Assembly: GCA_017649325.1 (NCBI GenBank)
Contig: JAGCHA010000087.1
Location: forward strand, 1 to 46,567
Length of the DNA: 46,567 bases
Origin: Ruminococcus sp.
GTDB lineage: Bacteria; Bacillota; Clostridia; Oscillospirales; Ruminococcaceae
Direction: 5' to 3'
The stretch's first letter is position 1; each line of letters opens with the position of its first letter. A program made the position numbers and the translations under genes. Shown here piece by piece: positions 2,115 to 18,637 of this stretch. The notes beneath the pieces are model-generated. The model saw only the letters and a list, made by a program, of their open reading frames with translations. It searched no databases and was not told the origin of the DNA.

Positions 2115-2801
2115 TCAGACGCCGTACTTTGTCTTGATACGCCCGAGCTTTTCGCCGAACGGCTTAGCAAGGAAATGGAGGAAGAGCACGTTTGAAACTG
2201 CATATGAGAGAGTATAGGGTATCGCCGTGAAGAGCGCCCCGAGGTAGAGCCTGAAGCTGAATCCCTCCGCGTACCATAGCACTGTCCAGATATCCATAAT
2301 GAAAGAGTAGGCGACACCCGCGAGCGCTCCGTACACGAGCAGCAGCCATTTTCTGCGTTTGAGCGGCTCCGCGAGGATGCCCGCGATGAGTCCGGTCATT
2401 CCCCACGCGAGCATCTGGAAGGCTGTCCACGGTCCCTGCCCAAAGTAAAAATTCGAGAGCACCGCCGTCATCGCCCCGACGAGGAATCCTGCCTCTCCGC
2501 CGAGGTACAGTGCAGTTATTATCGTGAGAGCGGCTATCGGCTTGAGGAATGGGATGAATCTCCCCGCGAAGCAGAGCGCGGTCATCACGGACACTATCAC
2601 GAGCCGCCGCGAGCCAGTAGTTTTACGCTCGAAGCCCGCCGCGAACAGCAGCAGCGCCATTACAGCGACCGCGAGCGAGATGATGATGTGTCGCTTTCTG
2701 TCGAACACCACTGCTCCCGCGATCGTCACCGCGGGTATGAGTACGAACGGCACCGCTACTCTGATAGAATTGCGCAGCTCGCGATTCTGTATCACAAACA
2801 T
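2115..2801 (-). CDS. ECF transporter substrate-binding S component (probably cobalamin)
   Basis: Integral membrane protein of 228 residues with several hydrophobic helices and the look of ECF S components (a helix containing RFIPFLKPIAAL, then GGEAGFLVGAMTAVLSNF and a WTAFQM-type segment). S components bind the vitamin in the membrane and dock on EcfT. The start at 2801 was chosen because AAAGGAGGCGCCGCC precedes that ATG and it overlaps the end of the ATPase gene by 10 bases; an upstream in-frame extension in the same reading frame would lie inside the ATPase gene. The substrate is inferred from the cobalamin riboswitch and transcobalamin-like partners in the same operon, not from specific residues. 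It resembles CbrT/CblT-type families, but I cannot assign the subfamily with certainty. Confidence 0.8.
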   Translation of the reverse strand: MFVIQNRELRNSIRVAVPFVLIPAVTIAGAVVFDRKRHIIISLAVAVMALLLFAAGFERKTTGSRRLVIVSVMTALCFAGRFIPFLKPIAALTIITALYLGGEAGFLVGAMTAVLSNFYFGQGPWTAFQMLAWGMTGLIAGILAEPLKRRKWLLLVYGALAGVAYSFIMDIWTVLWYAEGFSFRLYLGALFTAIPYTLSYAVSNVLFLHFLAKPFGEKLGRIKTKYGV

Positions 2802-4435
2802 GGCGGCGCCTCCTTTTTGCCGTTTCTGCGGCAGAGCTCCGCCGCCTGTGCGACCGTGACAGCTCCCTCGTAGAAGCCTCGGGTCATGCGGCTGACGGCG
2901 GTAGTATAGAAGCTGCTGCACGAGAAAAATTCGCGCGGCGCACCGACCGAGACCACCTGTCCGCCGAAGAACATCGCGCACCTGTCGGAGCAGTCTGCGG
3001 CGAATTCCACATCGTGCGTAACGATGACCGTAGTCACGCCGTCAGCCTTCAGCCTGCGCAGGATAGCCGTCATCTCCGCTTTAGCGTTCGCGTCGAGCCC
3101 CTTTGTCGGCTCGTCGAGGAGGAGCAGTTTCGGCTTCGAGGCAAGCACCTTCGCAAGCGCGACAAGCTGCTGCTCGCCACCCGAGAGGTCGTATGGGTGC
3201 TTTTCGAGAAGGTGCGAAATGTCGTAGGGAAGGGTTTTCACGTCAGCGCCGCACTCGTCGAGCTCCTCGCGCACGGAATTGTGCAGGAAGGTGGTCTGTA
3301 CGTCCTGCGGCAGAAGCGCGAGACATTCACGGTAGAGCGAGCGGTTGCGGTACTCTTTCAGCTTCTTCCCGAACACGCGCACGCTGCCCTTATACGGCTT
3401 CAGCAAGCCCGCCGCGGCGTTGAGTGTAGTGGTCTTGCCCGAGCCGTTCCCGCCGAGTATGCAGAATATCTCCCCTGCCCCGACTTCGAGGTCGAGCCCT
3501 TTTATCACGTCGCGTGAATAGCGGTCGTAGCGGAACCACACGTCGCTGAGCGTGAGTGCAGGCGCGTCGGGGACAGCGTAGTCTTCCGCGGGCAGCCTCC
3601 TGACCTCGCAGGAGTAGTTTTCCTCTATATATCGGCGTCCTTCGCGCACGGTCAGTGGGCAGTCCCCGCTCTCGCCGAGCTCCGTGTACAGCCTCGCCGC
3701 CGCGGGCATACCGCTCAGGAGTTTATCCCGCCCGCTAAGCTGTGTTATTACCCGCTCGGGAGCGCCGTTCGCGAGGAGGCTCCCCTTTTCCATGACCATG
3801 AGCCTGTCGCATATCGGCACGACCTCCTCAAGCCTGTGTTCCGCCATTATCATGGTCAGGGACATATCCTGATTGAGCCGTTTCAGCGCCGCGATGAAGT
3901 CCGAGGCGGCTATCGGGTCAAGCTGCGCAGTCGGCTCGTCGAGGATGAGGATATCGGGCTGCATGACGAGGACCGCCGCGAGGTTGAGCAGCTGTTTCTG
4001 TCCGCCCGAGAGCTCGGCGACGTCCCTGTCGTACCATTCACCGATGCCGAAATAGCTCGCCATTTCAGCTGTTCTGCGAGCTATCTCGCTCTGCGGGACA
4101 CCGAGATTTTCAAGCCCGAATGCGAGCTCGTGCCAGACCTTGTCGGTGACTATCTGCTGCTCGGGCTGCTGCATCACAAAGCCTATTTTCGCTGCAGAAT
4201 CGCGGTCTGCGAGCTCTGACAGCTCCCTCCCGCAGAAGAGTATGCGTCCCGAGCGCTCCCCGAGCGGCGTGAGTTCACGTTTGAGCATACGCAATAGCGT
4301 CGACTTGCCGCTGCCCGTAGCTCCGCAAAGCACTGCAAATTCGCCCTTTTCGAGCGTGAACGAGACGTCCCTCAGCGCGGGAGCCCCGCAATTCGGGTAC
4401 GTGAAGCTCAGATTTTCGACTGCAAGTATCTCCAC
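2792..4435 (-). CDS. ecfA: ECF transporter ATPase, two EcfA domains in one chain
   Basis: A 547-residue protein with two complete ABC ATPase domains. The first has Walker A GATGSGKST (near residue 40), signature LSGGQKQ and Walker B ILILDEPTAQLD. The second starts near residue 290 with Walker A GGNGSGKTT, signature LSGGEQQ and Walker B LLLLDEPTKGLD, followed by the H-loop VTHD. Most ECF systems use two separate proteins, EcfA1 and EcfA2; here they are fused tandemly (ECF group with a double-size ATPase). It overlaps ecfT by 28 bases and the S component by 10, so the operon is translationally coupled. It should energise vitamin release by the membrane module. Confidence 0.92.
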   Translation of the reverse strand: MEILAVENLSFTYPNCGAPALRDVSFTLEKGEFAVLCGATGSGKSTLLRMLKRELTPLGERSGRILFCGRELSELADRDSAAKIGFVMQQPEQQIVTDKVWHELAFGLENLGVPQSEIARRTAEMASYFGIGEWYDRDVAELSGGQKQLLNLAAVLVMQPDILILDEPTAQLDPIAASDFIAALKRLNQDMSLTMIMAEHRLEEVVPICDRLMVMEKGSLLANGAPERVITQLSGRDKLLSGMPAAARLYTELGESGDCPLTVREGRRYIEENYSCEVRRLPAEDYAVPDAPALTLSDVWFRYDRYSRDVIKGLDLEVGAGEIFCILGGNGSGKTTTLNAAAGLLKPYKGSVRVFGKKLKEYRNRSLYRECLALLPQDVQTTFLHNSVREELDECGADVKTLPYDISHLLEKHPYDLSGGEQQLVALAKVLASKPKLLLLDEPTKGLDANAKAEMTAILRRLKADGVTTVIVTHDVEFAADCSDRCAMFFGGQVVSVGAPREFFSCSSFYTTAVSRMTRGFYEGAVTVAQAAELCRRNGKKEAPPCL

Positions 4436-5286
4436 CTCAGGGACACCTCCGTTTCAATAAAAATAGGCAGGAGCACGAGTGCTCCGTAGGCGGCGGCTCC
4501 GCAGATGCCGAGCGCGCCGTTTACCGTGATATCAATGCGCGGGTAGAACGTGAAAGCGAGTGAATCTGCCGCGATAGCCGCCGCCGTGACCGCAAGCAGA
4601 GCGAGCGTCACGAGGACGAGCACCGCGTCCACCGCCGTAAAGCGAAAGCGTCGGAGCTGTGTGCGTCTGCCCGTACCGTAGCCGCGTGCCGCCATGCTGT
4701 CTGCTGTTATTATGCCATTTTCCAGCGCCCACGTCGAAATTATCGAAAAGACGCGCATATGTCCGCGGATATCGTCGATGATGTTGTCCTCGCTGTAGAG
4801 CCCCATTGCCTTCTGCGAGTCGCTGACCTGCTTTGCCCGCCTTGCGAACATCGGCACGGAGCGAAGCGCCATTGACAGCACGAGCGCGAGCTTCGGCGAG
4901 AGCGTCCCCGCCACACACAGCACCTTCTCGCTCGTCATTATCTGTGTCAGCGAGCGGAACCAGTACAGCACGCCGACTATCATAGCTGCTGAATTTACGC
5001 CGTATAACAGCGCTTCGAGAGTGACAGGGCGGTCGTTGATTACGAACAGCACCGTTGCGCCGTTGTGCGATATCAGCGGATTTGCGAGTGCGAGCACCGC
5101 GAACAGCAGGAAGAAGAAAATGTGCGACCTGACGTGCTTCGTGCCGTTGCGGACGACGAAGAACAGCACTGCTCCCGCGAGCGATATTGCCATAAGGAGC
5201 GGGTGTCCGCAGAACATTGCAACGCCCGTGACACTGAAAAACCAGACCGTTACTGCCACGGGGTCAAATTCCGAAAAACGCCTCAT
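4408..5286 (-). CDS. ecfT: ECF transporter transmembrane coupling protein EcfT
   Basis: A 292-residue CbiQ/EcfT-family scaffold. N-terminal hydrophobic helices are followed by a long cytoplasmic helical region carrying the coupling signatures: an ALRSVP segment and SMAARGYGTGRRT, the Ala-Arg-Gly motif that docks in the ATPase grooves. A final pair of hydrophobic segments follows. The start ATG overlaps the stop of the DUF4430 gene (ATGA-type junction, 5283-5286), and its 3' end overlaps ecfA. With EcfA and the S component it makes a dedicated (group I-like) importer. Confidence 0.9.
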   Translation of the reverse strand: MRRFSEFDPVAVTVWFFSVTGVAMFCGHPLLMAISLAGAVLFFVVRNGTKHVRSHIFFFLLFAVLALANPLISHNGATVLFVINDRPVTLEALLYGVNSAAMIVGVLYWFRSLTQIMTSEKVLCVAGTLSPKLALVLSMALRSVPMFARRAKQVSDSQKAMGLYSEDNIIDDIRGHMRVFSIISTWALENGIITADSMAARGYGTGRRTQLRRFRFTAVDAVLVLVTLALLAVTAAAIAADSLAFTFYPRIDITVNGALGICGAAAYGALVLLPIFIETEVSLRWRYLQSKI

Positions 5287-7136
5287 TCTTCATACACCTC
5301 GTTAAGGTCATGTCCGAGCTCGCAGGTATACAGCCACTCTATGACGTCGCCGTCCGAAAGGACGTAATCGCCGCTGTTTCGCGAGGGCGAGATTCCGTTG
5401 ACATGGTATACCCAGCCTGACAGGTCGCCGAAATCAAACTCGTACAGATAGTTTATTCCCGACACGTATATCATGCTTTTCGAACCTCCGCGCGAGTCCA
5501 CCTGAATGCCGTAGGTCTGCGCGGCGTCGGTGAGGACGTCGTACACTGTGTCGCCCTCCTCGATATCGAAGGAGGTCACGGGCAGGATAACGCCGTCCTC
5601 GGGGATATATTCACTGTCGGACTTCCCGACCGCCGTGTCACAGCGTATCTCCATAGTCACCGTACCTACAGTGTTTTCCTTGACTGCGGACGAGCCGTAA
5701 TACTCGTCTGCGGAGCGTATGTCCGTCACGAGGACGATAACTATGCCCGCCGCAGCCGCCGCTCCGATGAAGATGAAGTTCTTGCGGCTCTTCTTGCCGA
5801 GGGCGAGCAGCAGCACCGACAGCAATGCGCCCGCTCCGATGATGACGATGACGGCTATCGGCTTGTAGCCGCCGTGCCTGCCGCCTGTAACCGCGGATAT
5901 CACACCGCCCGATGTTGCCGCCGACGTTACTGTAGTCGTTAACTCCGACGAAGCCGTGATATGGGCAGACGAATCCGCCGCCGATACTGAGGATGACGCC
6001 GCGGTCGCAGTAGATTTAAACGAAGCCGAAGTATGAGCAGCCGATACTGCGGACGAAGCTGCGGTCGTCGTCAGACCAACCTCCGCAGAATTTTGTGCTG
6101 ACGCCGTCGTGACTGCCGCTGAGTCTGACTGAGTCGTCGCGGGAGCGGGCATATCTCCGCCCTTTTGCGAGAGTTCCTGACGGTCATCCATAATATAAAG
6201 GTAGGACTTCCCAGCGAGCATACGCTTGTAAGCGACGAATGAATACATCGCCTGAACAGTCGCAGTTTCGTTGAAGCCGCCGCCCGCCTCGTGGCAGAAG
6301 CTGCCGTCGCCGAGCCGATAGCCGAGCATGCCGTCGATAATGGTGTTGCCGTCCTTGATGAAGCGCTCGTCCTCGCAGCAGTCGATACCGAGCGCCGAGA
6401 GGGCGGTCAGCACCTGCGCGGAGCTCTCGAGATTCGGCTTTCCGAAGCCTTTATAGCCGCCGTCGTCCATCTGCTTGCGCGAGAGGAAGTCGACAGCACG
6501 ATCAACGGCGGCCTCTACATCGGCACGCTCACTGTACTGAGGCGAAAGTGCCTGCACGGTCATAGCGGTTACATCGATATCGCCGTAGTCTCCGAAGAGA
6601 GCCCAGCCGCCGTCCGCATACTGCATTGCAAGGAGCTCGTCCGCGACCGACTCCGCCGTATATTTGTCGCAGGTGTAGCCGTTATTAAGGATGTGAAGCC
6701 CGTAGATTCGGCTCATAATGCCGTTCTCTCCGACAGAGCTGTCGAGGATATCGGCGATATAGCTGTCGGAACTCCCCGCGGCGCAGAGAGCGAGCGCGAG
6801 TTTTTCACGGCTCGTCGCCGAATGAATAGTATTCGAGCTGATGTAGTCTGTCAGCGCCCTTTCGTAGGACTCCATACCGCGCACGCCGTCCTGACTGAGC
6901 GCGATGATGTACCACTCGGACATCACTCCCGCCTTATCGGTGAGATAACCGTCTATCCACTCCTGAACGTCGTCCGCGCCCGATTCATCGAGCTTATCTG
7001 CAAGTATACCGCCGATAAGGTCATCGACCTCGTCGGCGGTATATCCGTAGCCAAAAGCTCTTATAGGTACGAGCGCGAGCGACAGTACGATAACTGCCGC
7101 CCACGACATCACCCTTCCGAGAGCCTTAATTCTCAT
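5283..7136 (-). CDS. Membrane-anchored intrinsic-factor/transcobalamin-like protein (alpha/alpha barrel + DUF4430)
   Basis: A 617-residue protein with a signal peptide (about 1-28). A helical region (about 35-315) carries prenyltransferase/squalene-cyclase-like repeats: ADGGWALFG, DDGGYKGFG and GDGSFCHE, each followed by a helix with TA-type residues. Next come a Ser/Ala/Thr-rich linker (about 330-415) and two hydrophobic segments (about 425-450 and 455-475) joined by KKSRKN. The C-terminal DUF4430 domain contains EEGDTVYDVLTDAA, YEFDFGDLSGWVYHVNG and LSDGDVIEWLY. Mammalian intrinsic factor and transcobalamin pair the same two folds (alpha6/alpha6 barrel and DUF4430-type beta domain) to clamp cobalamin. 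The predicted topology puts both domains outside the cell. The gene overlaps its neighbours on both sides in the riboswitch operon. Cobalamin binding is inferred. Confidence 0.8.
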   Translation of the reverse strand: MRIKALGRVMSWAAVIVLSLALVPIRAFGYGYTADEVDDLIGGILADKLDESGADDVQEWIDGYLTDKAGVMSEWYIIALSQDGVRGMESYERALTDYISSNTIHSATSREKLALALCAAGSSDSYIADILDSSVGENGIMSRIYGLHILNNGYTCDKYTAESVADELLAMQYADGGWALFGDYGDIDVTAMTVQALSPQYSERADVEAAVDRAVDFLSRKQMDDGGYKGFGKPNLESSAQVLTALSALGIDCCEDERFIKDGNTIIDGMLGYRLGDGSFCHEAGGGFNETATVQAMYSFVAYKRMLAGKSYLYIMDDRQELSQKGGDMPAPATTQSDSAAVTTASAQNSAEVGLTTTAASSAVSAAHTSASFKSTATAASSSVSAADSSAHITASSELTTTVTSAATSGGVISAVTGGRHGGYKPIAVIVIIGAGALLSVLLLALGKKSRKNFIFIGAAAAAGIVIVLVTDIRSADEYYGSSAVKENTVGTVTMEIRCDTAVGKSDSEYIPEDGVILPVTSFDIEEGDTVYDVLTDAAQTYGIQVDSRGGSKSMIYVSGINYLYEFDFGDLSGWVYHVNGISPSRNSGDYVLSDGDVIEWLYTCELGHDLNEVYEE

Positions 7137-8040
7137 GCTTTTTTCTTAAAGAGAATGCCGCAAAAACGCCTGTTCCGAGAAGAACGAGGGCTACTGCCGC
7201 GCCTGTGTCGCCTGTCTTGGGTGAAGCGGAGGCTGTTGTTGCAGCCTTTGAGGTCGTGGTCTTAGCGGTAGTTGTTGTGGTTGTAGTGGTAGAAGCTGTA
7301 GTTGTAGTAGTCTCTTCTGTGGTAGTGGTAGTCTCCTCGCCCTTTACGTCAGCGATGAGTACGGGAGGAATGAGTATAGACTCACCCTCAACTGTTGCAC
7401 TGATAACGTTCTTGCCTGCCTTATCGAGCTTGACAGAAGCCTTGCCCTCGGCATCGGTCTTAGCCTCTGTAGCTTCGCCGTCCACGGTGATGACAGCGCC
7501 CTCGACCGCAACGGGTACCATCTGGAAGTTCTCGTCGAAGCTTGCGCGCTTGAGCACTACCTCGACCTCTGTACCCTGCTCTGCCTCAGCGGTATTCTTC
7601 TCGAACCAGCTGTAGTATGTGGTATTCCATGCGTTAGGGTCGGGATAAACGAAAGCGTTGAGGAAGTCGCCGCTCTTTATCTCGTCTGTGAGGCTGTTTG
7701 CAGCGGCATTGTTTACGTAGTAGCCGTAGCTTCCGCCGTTCTCGGTGCCCCAGAGCTTGTCGAGACCGAGTCCCCACTGACCCTCAGAGGACTTATAGCC
7801 TGCCTCGGAGCCGCCCTCGAAGAACTTATCGTGAGCGATAACGAGCGCGTCGTTTATCGTGAGCTTGCCGTCGTTGTCGGCATCGGTGACTGTTACAGCT
7901 TCCTGAGCAACAGCAAGCTTGCCGTCCTTATCCGAAATGGTGACAAAGATGTCAGCAGAAGCGTCATCGGCGAGCGCGCTGAGGCTCGCAGCCGAGCAGG
8001 TGATGAATGCGGCAGCAGCCGCAGCAATGATTTTTTTAAT
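7126..8040 (-). CDS. Sortase-anchored surface protein, first gene of the cobalamin operon, apparent ATT start
   Basis: A 304-residue product if read from an ATT codon at 8040. It has a signal peptide (about 1-24, ending ALADD), an EF-hand/dockerin-like loop (DADNDGKLTINDA), and then a short segment GSYGYYVNNAAANSLTDEIKSGDFLNAFVY that resembles the end of a DUF4430 beta domain. An Ig-like beta domain, a Thr-rich stalk, SPKTG at 273-277 (LPxTG-like), a hydrophobic helix and RKKHEN complete it. AAAGGAGAGG lies 7 bases before the ATT. No in-frame ATG or GTG occurs between the riboswitch terminator and the signal peptide; a TTG at 8094 has no clear ribosome binding site. It is probably a wall-displayed capture protein for the ligand imported by the downstream ECF system (inference). 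Confidence 0.75.
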   Translation of the reverse strand: MKKIIAAAAAAFITCSAASLSALADDASADIFVTISDKDGKLAVAQEAVTVTDADNDGKLTINDALVIAHDKFFEGGSEAGYKSSEGQWGLGLDKLWGTENGGSYGYYVNNAAANSLTDEIKSGDFLNAFVYPDPNAWNTTYYSWFEKNTAEAEQGTEVEVVLKRASFDENFQMVPVAVEGAVITVDGEATEAKTDAEGKASVKLDKAGKNVISATVEGESILIPPVLIADVKGEETTTTTEETTTTTASTTTTTTTTAKTTTSKAATTASASPKTGDTGAAVALVLLGTGVFAAFSLRKKHEN

Positions 8041-8063
8041 AAAATGACCTCTCCTTTTTTGAT

Positions 8064-8079
8064 TGTTCCACGTGGAACA
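8064..8079. promoter_or_regulatory. parS site (ParB/Spo0J binding)
   Basis: TGTTCCACGTGGAACA, a perfect 16-bp palindrome differing by one base from the Bacillus parS consensus TGTTTCACGTGAAACA at each arm. It sits in the 5' leader of the cobalamin operon, between the riboswitch terminator and the first gene. Confidence 0.9.
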
Positions 8080-8092
8080 ATGATGATAGGGC

Positions 8093-8120
8093 AATAAAAA
8101 CGCCTTCCGAACGGAAAGCG
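8093..8120 (-). terminator. Riboswitch-controlled terminator of the cobalamin operon
   Basis: Minus-strand stem CGCTTTCC / GGAAGGCG (8113-8120 and 8101-8108, one G-U pair) with a GTTC loop, followed by TTTTTATT. It lies directly downstream of the aptamer, so regulation is probably by premature transcription termination. Confidence 0.8.
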
Positions 8121-8124
8121 GCTG

Positions 8125-8302
8125 CGGGACATAACAAACGACCTCCCGAATAGATCCGAGAAGCTCTGACATTTCCCGTTTTTCACTGTCCAAAAACGTG
8201 AATATCTGCATACCTGACGAGCGACCCGACTTTGGCTCATGCCGCATACGGTAGTGACTGCTGTGGCGGATTCTCACCGCACTTCCCTCAGTTTCAGGCT
8301 GC
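8125..8302 (-). ncRNA. Cobalamin riboswitch
   Basis: The minus-strand leader carries the conserved order of the cobalamin aptamer. CCTGAAACTGAGGGAAG is followed by GCGGTGAGAATCCGC and CACAGCAGTCACTACCGTATG, then after a variable hairpin the B12-box-like stretch GTCGGGTCGCTCGTCAGGTATGCAG (8190-8240 region). It starts at the predicted transcription start and is followed by an intrinsic terminator. In this family adenosyl- or methylcobalamin binding turns expression off. Boundaries are approximate, and the B12 box is a variant (CAGGTATGC rather than CAGGAGACCTGCC). Confidence 0.85.
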
Positions 8303-8308
8303 AAACAC

Positions 8309-8337
8309 ATTATAACACACTCCGCCGTACTTGTCAA
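8309..8337 (-). promoter_or_regulatory. Promoter of the cobalamin operon
   Basis: On the minus strand, TTGACA (8332-8337), a 17-base spacer and TATAAT (8309-8314), a perfect sigma-A consensus. Transcription would begin near 8302, exactly at the riboswitch 5' end. Confidence 0.88.
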
Positions 8338-8393: not shown

Positions 8394-8409
8394 TGTTTCA
8401 CGTGGAACA
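8394..8409. promoter_or_regulatory. parS site
   Basis: TGTTTCACGTGGAACA. It lies in the divergent promoter region between the cobalamin operon and the exonuclease gene, 9 bases before the exonuclease -35 box. Confidence 0.88.
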
Positions 8410-8417
8410 ATCTCCGT

Positions 8418-8446
8418 TTGACATTTTTCGCGGTCGGTACTATAAT
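8418..8446 (+). promoter_or_regulatory. Promoter for the exonuclease gene
   Basis: TTGACA (8418-8423), 17-base spacer, TATAAT (8441-8446); start codon 34 bases downstream. Confidence 0.88.
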
Positions 8447-8479: not shown

Positions 8480-9064
8480 ATGAAAACTATCAGAGATAGA
8501 AAGGGCAAGAGCAGACTGCTCCTGCCGGGTGACTACTGCGTGGTCGACATTGAAACTACAGGTCTCGCTCCCGAAGAGAGTGAGATAATCGAAATAGCAG
8601 CCGTCAGATACCGTGACTTCAAAAAGGGAGAGGTATATTCGACCCTTGTTAAGCCTCAGAATAGAATTTCGGGCTTCATAACCGAGCTGACAGGTATATC
8701 TAACGATATGGTCGCGGACGCTCCGAGGAGAGAGGAGGCTATAAGCGGCTTCCGTGAATTCGTCGGTGACGATATCATCCTCGGCTATAACGTCAATTTC
8801 GATATCAACTTTCTCTACGATGCTCTCCTTAAATGCCACGGAACTTACCTCCGCAATGATTTCGTAGATGTGCTCCGTTTCACGAGAAAGGCTCTGGCTG
8901 ACCTCGAGAGCCGCTCTCAGGTGAAAGTTGCCGAACATTTCGGGATAAGTACGGGCGGTGCTCACCGCGCAGTGAACGACTGCGACATCTGCAACGCCAT
9001 TTATCAGAAAATGTGCACCGAGCAGTGCATAATCGAACTGACAAAGAAAAAAAGCAGGGGTTAA
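8480..9064 (+). CDS. DEDDh 3'-5' exonuclease, DNA polymerase III epsilon/PolC-exo type
   Basis: A 194-residue single-domain nuclease. Exo I is VVDIETTG (Asp and Glu near residues 22-24). Exo II is GYNVNFDINFL. Exo III is GGAHRAVNDCDICNAIY, with the His-x4-Asp of the DEDDh class. It resembles the exonuclease domain of PolC or free-standing DnaQ-like proteins, and could proofread or trim DNA or RNA ends. The gene stands alone behind its own consensus promoter, with GGAAAGGA before the ATG. The precise substrate cannot be told from sequence. Confidence 0.88.
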   Translation: MKTIRDRKGKSRLLLPGDYCVVDIETTGLAPEESEIIEIAAVRYRDFKKGEVYSTLVKPQNRISGFITELTGISNDMVADAPRREEAISGFREFVGDDIILGYNVNFDINFLYDALLKCHGTYLRNDFVDVLRFTRKALADLESRSQVKVAEHFGISTGGAHRAVNDCDICNAIYQKMCTEQCIIELTKKKSRG

Positions 9065-14985: not shown

Positions 14986-15001
14986 TGTTCCACGTGGAAC
15001 A
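14986..15001. promoter_or_regulatory. parS site
   Basis: TGTTCCACGTGGAACA, perfect palindrome, in the noc-soj intergenic region. Confidence 0.92.
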
Positions 15002-15026: not shown

Positions 15027-15042
15027 TGTTTCACGTGGAACA
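15027..15042. promoter_or_regulatory. parS site
   Basis: TGTTTCACGTGGAACA, 25 bases from the previous site. Confidence 0.92.
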
Positions 15043-15071: not shown

Positions 15072-15087
15072 TGTTCCACGTGGAACA
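15072..15087. promoter_or_regulatory. parS site
   Basis: TGTTCCACGTGGAACA, perfect palindrome, ending one base before the noc stop codon. Confidence 0.92.
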
Positions 15088-16732: not shown

Positions 16733-18607
16733 TCACCTCTTTTCCTTATGGAGCCATACTACCAACATAGATACGTCGGCAGGTGAAACTCCGGAAATTC
16801 TTGAAGCCTGACCTATTGAAAGTGGCTTTATCTTGTTCAGCTTCTCGGCAGCTTCAAGACGAAGTCCGTAAACCTGCGTATAATCTGTATCGGGTGGAAG
16901 TAACTTTTCCTCGAGTTTTTTCATTTGTGCTATCTGTTCAAGCTGCTTTTCAATATAACCCTCGTATTTGATTTTAAGCTCGACCTGCTCGCATACATCG
17001 TCAGGGAGCTGTGGACGCTCGTCATCATACTGAGCAATATCGTTATATTTAAGTTGTGGACGACGAATAAGGTCGGCAATTTTGCAGGGACTTTTTAGCG
17101 GTGAAGTACCCATGCTTTCTAAATAATTATTCAGTGTTTCACGTGGAACAATGGTAGTAGTTTTCACTCTCTTTATCTCGGTTTCGACCAGTGAAATCTT
17201 TTCTTCAAGCTTTCCAAGCCTTTCATCGCTGATAAGTCCGATACTGTGACCGATCGGCATCAGGCGCTGATCAGCGTTATCCTGTCGAAGAATAAGCCTG
17301 TATTCACTGCGTGAAGTCATCATTCTATACGGGTCTGAGCAGCCTTTTGTCACAAGATCGTCAACGAGTGTACCGATATATGAGCTCGCGCGGCTAAGAA
17401 TCAACGGTTCACGTCCTAGAACTTTCAGCGCGGCGTTTATGCCCGCGATAAGCCCCTGCGCTCCGGCCTCCTCATAGCCAGAACTGCCATTAAACTGTCC
17501 TGCACCGTAAAGTCCCTTCACCTGCTTAAATTCGAGAGTCGGGAGCAGCTGAAGCGGGTCGCAGCAGTCATATTCTATCGCGTACGCGGGGCGCATTATC
17601 TCAACGTTTTCAAGTCCCTTTATCGTACGGAGAAATTTCAGCTGTACGTCCTCCGGCAGCGATGAGGACATTCCCTGCAAATAGTATTCTTCTGTTGATA
17701 ATCCCATAGGCTCAACGAACAACTGATGCCTTGGCTTGTCAGAAAATCTAACGACCTTGTCCTCGATTGACGGACAGTATCTCGGGCCCACTCCCTCTAT
17801 TCTTCCGCTGTATAAAGGCGACCTGTTGAGGTTTGAAAGTATCACTTCATGGGTATTACTATTTGTATATGTTATATAGCAGCTCACTTGGTTTTCAAGT
17901 CCGTCCGTTGCCGTTTCAAATGAAAAAGGAACTATTTTTTCGTCGCCGTCCTGACGCTCCATAGCATCAAAATCAATACTTCTTTTGTGGACACGACATG
18001 GCGTTCCCGTTTTAAAGCGGCGAAGCTCTATCCCGTTTTCCATCAGACTTGCAGATAAACCTCTGCTCGGGAGTGCAGAATCAGGTCCGCTTTCATATGA
18101 AAATTCACCAATATGTATCTTGCCTTTCAGGTAAGTACCTGTAGCAATTATCACAGATTTGACAGAGTATTCAGCTCCGAGCGAGGTTTTTACTCCTATT
18201 ATTTGTCCATTGTCGCAGATTATTTCCGTGATCTCAGCCTGTTTGACAGACAGATTTTCCTGTTTTTCACAGACTTGCTTCATATAATTATGATATTTTA
18301 CTCTGTCAGCCTGCACTCTCAGACTGTGAACTGCAGGTCCTTTTCCGCGATTCAGCATTCGGCTCTGGATAAAACAAGCGTCAGCAGCCTTGCCCATTTC
18401 GCCTCCCAAGGCGTCAATCTCGCGGACAAGATGACCCTTCGCAGTGCCTCCGATTGACGGATTACAGGGCATATTCGCTATCTGGTCAAGTGAAATCGTG
18501 AACATAACTGTCTTGCAGCCGAGGCGCGCTGAAGCAAGTGCCGCTTCAACTCCTGCGTGACCTGCGCCGACTACAGCTACGTCAAATTCTCCCATTTTGT
18601 ATGACAT
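16733..18607 (-). CDS. mnmG: tRNA uridine-5-carboxymethylaminomethyl modification FAD enzyme MnmG
   Basis: A 624-residue FAD protein (GidA). The dinucleotide-binding loop is [16 protein letters not shown], with family signatures [40 protein letters not shown] and [23 protein letters not shown]. With MnmE it builds the cmnm5 group on wobble U34 of several tRNAs. It lies 30 bases downstream of mnmE, with a parS site in the gap and another inside the coding region. Confidence 0.97.
17135..17150. promoter_or_regulatory. parS site inside mnmG
   Basis: TGTTTCACGTGGAACA, within codons near the middle of mnmG. The site is retained despite coding constraint, which supports function. Confidence 0.88.
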
Positions 18608-18621
18608 ATGAACTCCTTAAT

Positions 18622-18637
18622 TGTTCCACGTGGAACA
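18622..18637. promoter_or_regulatory. parS site between mnmE and mnmG
   Basis: TGTTCCACGTGGAACA, perfect palindrome, ending at the base before the mnmE stop codon. It is the site nearest to dnaA, about 5.2 kb away. Confidence 0.92.

Follow-up and report, generated by a model that had tools for sequence, protein, structure and literature searches.

The window analysed here, the whole 46,567-nucleotide stretch of contig JAGCHA010000087.1 from a Ruminococcus sp. genome, carries on its minus strand, from position 8337 down to position 2115, a promoter, a cobalamin-type aptamer, a terminator-like hairpin and five overlapping genes, in that order (Table 1). An earlier note on the same DNA had described this line-up with a perfect promoter, and the description is confirmed: the promoter agrees with the consensus at 12 of 12 positions, and the consecutive genes overlap by 11, 4, 28 and 10 bases. 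The genes are predicted to encode a wall-anchored surface protein, a membrane protein that combines an alpha/alpha toroid with a DUF4430 domain, and the EcfT, EcfA and S components of an energy-coupling factor (ECF) transporter. Taken together, they are likely to form a corrinoid (vitamin B12-type) capture-and-import operon under the control of a cobalamin riboswitch.

Table 1 Predicted features of the operon, from the promoter to the last gene
Feature	Position	Strand	Basis
Predicted sigma-70-type promoter, TTGACA-17-TATAAT, with TG before the -10 element (extended -10)	8309..8337	-	Consensus only, 12/12 matches
Cobalamin-type riboswitch aptamer (short, AdoCbl-II-like class)	8196..8302 (about)	-	Sub-cut-off RF01482 match; R1 model; covariation in 20 related leaders
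Intrinsic-terminator-like hairpin followed by a T-run	8101..8120	-	Consensus scan
Putative wall-anchored surface protein, 304 aa, ATT start	7126..8040	-	Hydrophobic N-terminus, DxDxDG domain, Thr-rich stalk, SPKTG anchor
Toroid + DUF4430 membrane protein, 617 aa	5283..7136	-	PF14478, toroid profile, hydrophobic windows
EcfT transmembrane coupling protein	4408..5286	-	PF02361 CbiQ, 5.6e-10, over cut-off; AARG motif at 199
EcfA double ATPase, 547 aa, GTG start	2792..4435	-	TIGR04520, 338 bits, over cut-off
CbrT-like S component, 228 aa	2115..2801	-	PDB match 6fnp_A; PF07155 and PF12822 over cut-off

The substrate assignment of the transporter comes from its S component. The sole PDB sequence matched by this protein at E up to 10 was 6fnp_A (E = 5.1e-10), which belongs to the structure of the ECF-CbrT complex of Lactobacillus delbrueckii, an importer of cobalamin and cobinamide (PMC5997447). 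A profile of 15 S-component sequences matched the same chain at 6.9e-17, with the next chain, 4hzu_S (8.8e-4), 43 bits behind. The earlier note had staked its interpretation on the S component not falling in a non-cobalamin family, and the closest solved S component is indeed CbrT. The assignment of the protein to the CbrT type by its closest solved structure is thus well supported, and cobalamin transport is predicted. As in the ECF transporters of group I, which have a dedicated module, EcfT, two ATPase domains and the S component are encoded in one operon; the double EcfA contains two Walker A, two LSGG and two Walker B motifs.

With open thresholds, the AdoCbl model RF01482 matched the minus strand at 8312-8166 with 38.9 bits against a cut-off of 50 (E = 1.2e-5 in the scanned stretch and 1.1e-5 in the whole genome, where it was the sole RF01482 match found). 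A local model, R1, was built from six leaders with an invariant aptamer core, and it scores the window aptamer at 95 bits, the window leader being one of its builders. Of 30 wall-gene loci, R1 matches 20 at E up to 0.1 and, when the six builders are set aside, 14 of 24. Among the 20 related leaders, 11 of 19 base pairs have changed on both sides, and 91.8% of the paired cells can pair, against 29.9-44.9% with slid partners; the alignment was fitted to R1 and hence leans towards it, six of its 20 rows having built the model. Ten of the leaders matched by R1 also exceed Rfam cut-offs, namely the builders L039 and L040 (AdoCbl-II) and L046 (Cobalamin) and the non-builders L083, L085, L086, L088, L090, L092 and L093. 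The conserved core and the covarying helices are common to the window aptamer and the members of the cobalamin clan CL00101 that pass their cut-offs. Because of the covariation and the ten leaders found by R1 that pass Rfam cut-offs, we conclude that the window aptamer is real and of a short, AdoCbl-II-like class, with cobalamin binding and control of the operon as predictions. For the terminator, the consensus scan returned 11 terminator-like sites in 6801 bases against 5.8 in shuffles. In 17 of the 20 related leaders, a count made without a shuffle control, a stem followed by a T-run is located 203-284 nucleotides from where the aptamer match starts.

The 617-residue protein comprises a hydrophobic N-terminus, an alpha/alpha toroid (about residues 30-320), a Ser/Thr linker, two hydrophobic spans (427-445 and 455-473) and a DUF4430 domain at 528-604 (PF14478, 8.2e-14, 52.2 bits against a cut-off of 23.8). 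The toroid profile matches solved squalene-cyclase-type proteins at 3.9e-15, and the Pfam toroid models stay below their cut-offs for this protein. The "barrel" of the earlier note is therefore an alpha/alpha toroid of the squalene-cyclase/prenyltransferase type, while the DUF4430 domain that it had named is present, separated from the toroid by the two spans. Judging from the hydrophobic segments, the simplest topology would place both folded domains outside the cell, near the S component. DUF4430 is found in the C-terminal region of transcobalamin-type (TCN) proteins (PMC4350170), and the likeness of the surface proteins to mammalian B12 carriers, which the earlier note had stressed, is reasonable for this protein by domain make-up, not by direct sequence match; for the wall protein, a search for similarity to DUF4430 gave nothing significant.

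In the wall protein, a hydrophobic N-terminus is followed by a conserved domain with a DxDxDG loop, an Ig/CarboxypepD-like domain, a Thr-rich stalk and the SPKTG motif. The loop (DxDxDGxxTxxDA, residues 53-65) is invariant in 10 of 10 aligned wall proteins and presumably resembles the calcium loops of dockerins and EF-hands; a weak CarboxypepD-like match to the second domain was obtained for six of the ten, the window protein not being among them. The SPKTG motif precedes a hydrophobic segment (280-298) and an RKKHEN tail. This anchor scores 14.6 bits with the NCBIfam NPXTG model, below its cut-off of 23.5, and four sortase matches over cut-off are present in the same genome. A search of the PDB with the wall-protein profile gave no match. 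A relationship of the wall domain to DUF4430 was tried and left unproven, the profile alignments giving P = 0.22, 0.09 and 0.057 (32 + 38 sequences) and 0.11 (97 + 110 sequences). The predicted start codon at 8040-8038 is ATT, at the position of an ATG in the relatives L033, L038, L202, L131, L145, L132, L144 and L148, so that either the start codon is a rare one or the assembly is in error here. In-frame TTG codons upstream were rejected as starts, since the ATG of the relatives sits at the place of the ATT with a similar ribosome-binding site before it. Homologues of the wall protein also occur on contigs other than that of the toroid gene in four genomes (G188:C11, G028:C32, G139:C60 and G196:C3, corresponding to L078, L087, L090 and L093), two of them (L090 and L093) with a cobalamin aptamer upstream.

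The linkage of these genes is conserved well beyond the window. A first sample of 29 neighbourhoods, drawn from those genomes that scored best among the 70 with matches (197 were searched), includes several short contigs. Of these neighbourhoods, 23 contain EcfT and the double EcfA (EcfAA) beside a toroid or DUF4430 gene, two contain only the S component and four none of the three; 27 of the loci were scanned at Rfam gathering scores, and 12 carry a cobalamin aptamer. The second sample consists of 80 loci from named genomes, the best 80 of at least 529 confirmed relatives. Here the order wall-toroid-EcfT-EcfAA-S is kept in 65 loci and appears in rotated form (EcfT-EcfAA-S-wall-toroid) in five; of the remainder, in five no wall gene is visible (three begin less than 600 bases from a contig end), three have only the toroid and S genes and two end before the S component. 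In 54 of the 80 loci, R1 detects an aptamer no more than 1.5 kb upstream of the operon's first gene; at least two of these loci are R1 builders. Among the other 26, eight have less than 1 kb of upstream sequence and six of the remaining 18 carry an Rfam cobalamin riboswitch, giving 60 of 80 loci with a cobalamin aptamer by either method. The nearest named relatives among the best listed are Ruminococcus, many of them R. flavefaciens. At locus L033 (2050-2550), no cobalamin aptamer is visible upstream of the operon. At L034, L035, L161, L162 and L200 (L034 and L161 being taken as the same contig, and likewise L035 and L200), the toroid + DUF4430 gene adjoins the S component and no EcfT or EcfA was found nearby, which suggests that such loci use a shared ECF module encoded elsewhere.

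The co-occurrence of DUF4430 + toroid proteins with the S component, which the earlier note had proposed to look for, was examined in 197 genomes of the family. The S component was counted at E < 1e-25, which gave 61 genomes after nine weaker matches were dropped, and ten weak toroid/DUF4430 matches were likewise set aside. Toroid/DUF4430 proteins were found in 53 of the 61 S-component genomes against 7 of the 136 others (Fisher 2e-31), or 53 of 61 against 17 of 136 with the weak matches kept (2e-24), p-values that, like those given below, are too small, since the genomes share ancestry and not all are complete. In 45 of the 61 genomes the two genes lie within 10 kb of each other. The synthesis gene CbiD shows the opposite tendency, being present in 9 of the 61 genomes with the S component and in 55 of the remaining 136 (p = 3e-4); for genomes with toroid/DUF4430 proteins (14 of 60 against 50 of 137) the trend is not significant (p = 0.10).

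The genome to which the window belongs is one of the nine with both CbiD and the S component. Its contig C13 carries homologues of cbiD, cbiF, cbiG, cbiH, cbiJ, cbiT/E, cbiA, cobT, cbiB, cobQ, cbiC and cbiK, those of cbiG, cbiT/E, cbiC and cbiK being below curated cut-offs. At this locus (L062), the anaerobic cobalamin-synthesis operon is followed by a 100-bit Cobalamin riboswitch, the cbiK homologue and a BtuC-like permease gene, the latter a fragment at the edge of the fetched stretch. A B12-binding domain over cut-off was found in a 792-residue frame of the same genome (G000). Scavenging of the kind practised by auxotrophs only was rejected for this organism, since B12-synthesis genes are present. 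The bacterium thus probably makes corrinoids yet keeps an importer behind a riboswitch.

The following sequence of events is consistent with these data. At low intracellular cobalamin, the leader would let transcription pass the terminator, if the direction of control is the presumed one, and the wall-anchored protein and the membrane-anchored toroid/DUF4430 protein would then be displayed on the outside of the cell. Between them, the toroid and DUF4430 domains would probably clamp a corrinoid in a transcobalamin-like manner, the clamped corrinoid might be offered to the CbrT-like S component at the membrane, and the dedicated EcfT/EcfA-EcfA module would, by homology, drive its import; for the transporter and the surface proteins alike, we infer that the ligand is a corrinoid. 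Substrate binding in ECF transporters has been ascribed to the membrane S component itself (PMC5997447), so an extracellular clamp would make this a receptor-assisted ECF system. A version of the model in which the membrane-tethered clamp is loaded by its wall-anchored partner and hands corrinoids directly to the S component is put forward tentatively, as a possibility of some weight that falls short of being the favoured one. If it is true, such a system is kept by a bacterium that is probably able to make B12 itself.

Several results weigh against the reading of the locus as a riboswitch-controlled corrinoid importer. No match over Rfam gathering scores was found anywhere in the window, the aptamer remaining below the cut-offs of the cobalamin clan (RF00174, RF01482 and RF01689); the absence of an Rfam hit at 8190-8302, which the earlier note would have counted against its riboswitch, is therefore literally the case at the default threshold. 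A gathering cut-off is a curated threshold, not a biological property, and the family evidence is here taken to outweigh it. The fold energy of the single aptamer sequence was no better than that of shuffles (z = 0.19), an uninformative result. R1 aptamers occur in 32 of the 197 family genomes and nine of these have no strong S component, so the R1-type class is not confined to this operon. Conversely, in 12 of the 80 loci neither R1 (E up to 0.01) nor Rfam at its gathering scores detects a cobalamin aptamer, with at least 1 kb of upstream sequence available; one of these loci is L153, which is taken as the same contig as L033 and whose toroid protein is 49% identical to that of the window. 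The system is also patchy, the same-genus genome G135 lacking both the toroid protein and the S component. PF01122, the family of eukaryotic cobalamin-binding proteins, does not match the window toroid and matches only 1 of 21 family members (E = 0.0024), and transcobalamin was not found in the PDB by full-length, DUF4430-only or toroid-only profiles. With an operon for B12 synthesis and a BtuC-like gene of its own, the organism has no obvious need for an importer. Finally, the best Pfam label of the S component is the riboflavin-type PF07155, over its cut-off.

This label, together with the assignment of EcfT to PF02361, which is labelled cobalt transport, would fit a leader that senses cobalamin combined with a transporter for a different vitamin or for a cobalt species. 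Little weight attaches to the riboflavin label, because with PF07155 the fragment of CbrT reaches 24.6 bits, just under the cut-off of 26.7 (with PF12822 it is over the cut-off), so that riboflavin and cobalamin are not told apart by this label. Given also the 43-bit lead of CbrT over the next solved chain, and a domain scan in which the membrane and surface proteins of the operon matched no cobalt S component such as CbiM, a different substrate is highly improbable. It is only slightly easier to credit that the toroid + DUF4430 and wall proteins act as enzymes or adhesins at the surface, co-regulated with the importer and without a role in B12 capture. The toroid profiles do match squalene-cyclase-type proteins best, wall-family members match Ig/CarboxypepD-like domains without significant DUF4430 similarity, and among seven early genes of other operons four (L059, L061, L052 and L058) have no DUF4430 match at E 0.001; the other three (L047, L060 and L055), however, combine wall-anchor-like ends with DUF4430 over its cut-off, and the strong linkage of toroid/DUF4430 to the S component and the overlapping genes also argue against this reading.

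The alternative that deserves the most attention concerns the form of the cargo. In a bacterium that makes the corrinoid ring, what the importer brings in for salvage and remodelling could be precursors or analogues of corrinoids (cobinamide, other cobamides) and not intact B12. The importer is kept in a genome with synthesis genes of its own, which leaves room for such salvage as its main role; ECF-CbrT, in addition, imports cobinamide as well (PMC5997447), and CbiD accompanies the S component in nine genomes. Against this, 52 of the 61 carriers lack CbiD (81 of the 136 others, p = 3e-4), a distribution that fits the supply of finished cofactor to non-producers, and precursor salvage as the principal role appears rather unlikely. 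The preferred reading, a corrinoid capture-and-import operon under a cobalamin riboswitch, accordingly retains only part of what the earlier note proposed: the import operon stands, on the strength of the aptamer covariation, the CbrT-like S component, the ECF module and the conserved linkage, and no such support was found for the carrier-like nature of the wall protein.

Some features of the surrounding DNA deserve mention. Further perfect TTGACA-17-TATAAT promoters lie just outside the operon, at 8418-8446 on the plus strand and 1921-1893 on the minus strand, and one of them points towards an open reading frame at 8480 that looks exonuclease-like by eye. The palindrome TGTTYCACGTGGAACA is present at 8064-8079, 8394-8409, 14986-15001, 15027-15042, 15072-15087, 17135-17150 and 18622-18637 (n = 7; 0.01 by chance), one copy thus lying within the operon leader and one just upstream of the operon promoter. 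There are 21 sites in the genome as a whole. We take these palindromes to be parS-like, and the window may be close to the origin of replication. In 82 loci (the 80 named ones, L033 and L038), the palindrome was found only at L131 and L145, outside the leader.

The combination of domains described here has a precedent. Burroughs et al. (2007; PMC1796856) predicted that toroid + SLBB proteins of low-GC Gram-positive bacteria, secreted or wall-anchored, scavenge B12 or its precursors, and noted that CbiO-like and CbiQ-like genes generally accompany theirs in predicted operons, where a further extracellular SLBB protein is sometimes encoded as well. In our reading, their SLBB clade equals Pfam DUF4430, and the present operon shares with their proteins the DUF4430 domain, the toroid that commonly accompanies it, the predicted extracellular location and the CbiO-/CbiQ-like genes. 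Since that prediction already covered the combination, the operon is best seen as a well-supported member of a predicted kind; the earlier note's "poorly described system" applies to the experimental side, for which no work on B12 capture by DUF4430/toroid proteins in Gram-positive bacteria was found in the literature searched (no preprints and few subscription papers, hence weak evidence), passages of PMC3766115 likewise containing nothing on it. The operon departs from the 2007 account in its CbrT-like S component, its cobalamin riboswitch and the two hydrophobic spans that split toroid and DUF4430; the account of toroid + SLBB proteins in PMC1796856 makes no link to CbrT or riboswitches. 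The hosts in that account usually lack key B12-synthesis genes, as a tendency and not a requirement, whereas the present genome carries many; the tendency holds for S-component genomes and is weak for toroid/DUF4430 genomes.

Other known systems resemble the operon in part. The surface capture of B12 that feeds a dedicated importer recalls, by description only, the lipoproteins BtuG and BtuH of Bacteroides, which, unlike the present proteins, belong to Gram-negative bacteria and work with BtuB outer-membrane transporters. With animal transcobalamin and intrinsic factor, the 617-residue protein shares the pairing of an alpha/alpha toroid with a C-terminal DUF4430-type beta-grasp domain, but it is predicted to be membrane-anchored and has neither a PDB sequence match to them nor PF01122. 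The ECF-CbrT transporter of L. delbrueckii has a homologous S component that works with an ECF module (PMC5997447); by comparison, the operon in the window encodes a module of its own, in which the ATPases are fused, together with its own surface proteins. What is added to the prediction of 2007 is the link to CbrT, the riboswitch, the counts and the B12-synthesis operon in the same genome, and the operon thereby offers a widespread candidate with a transporter assignment, a regulator and proteins fit for purification and testing.

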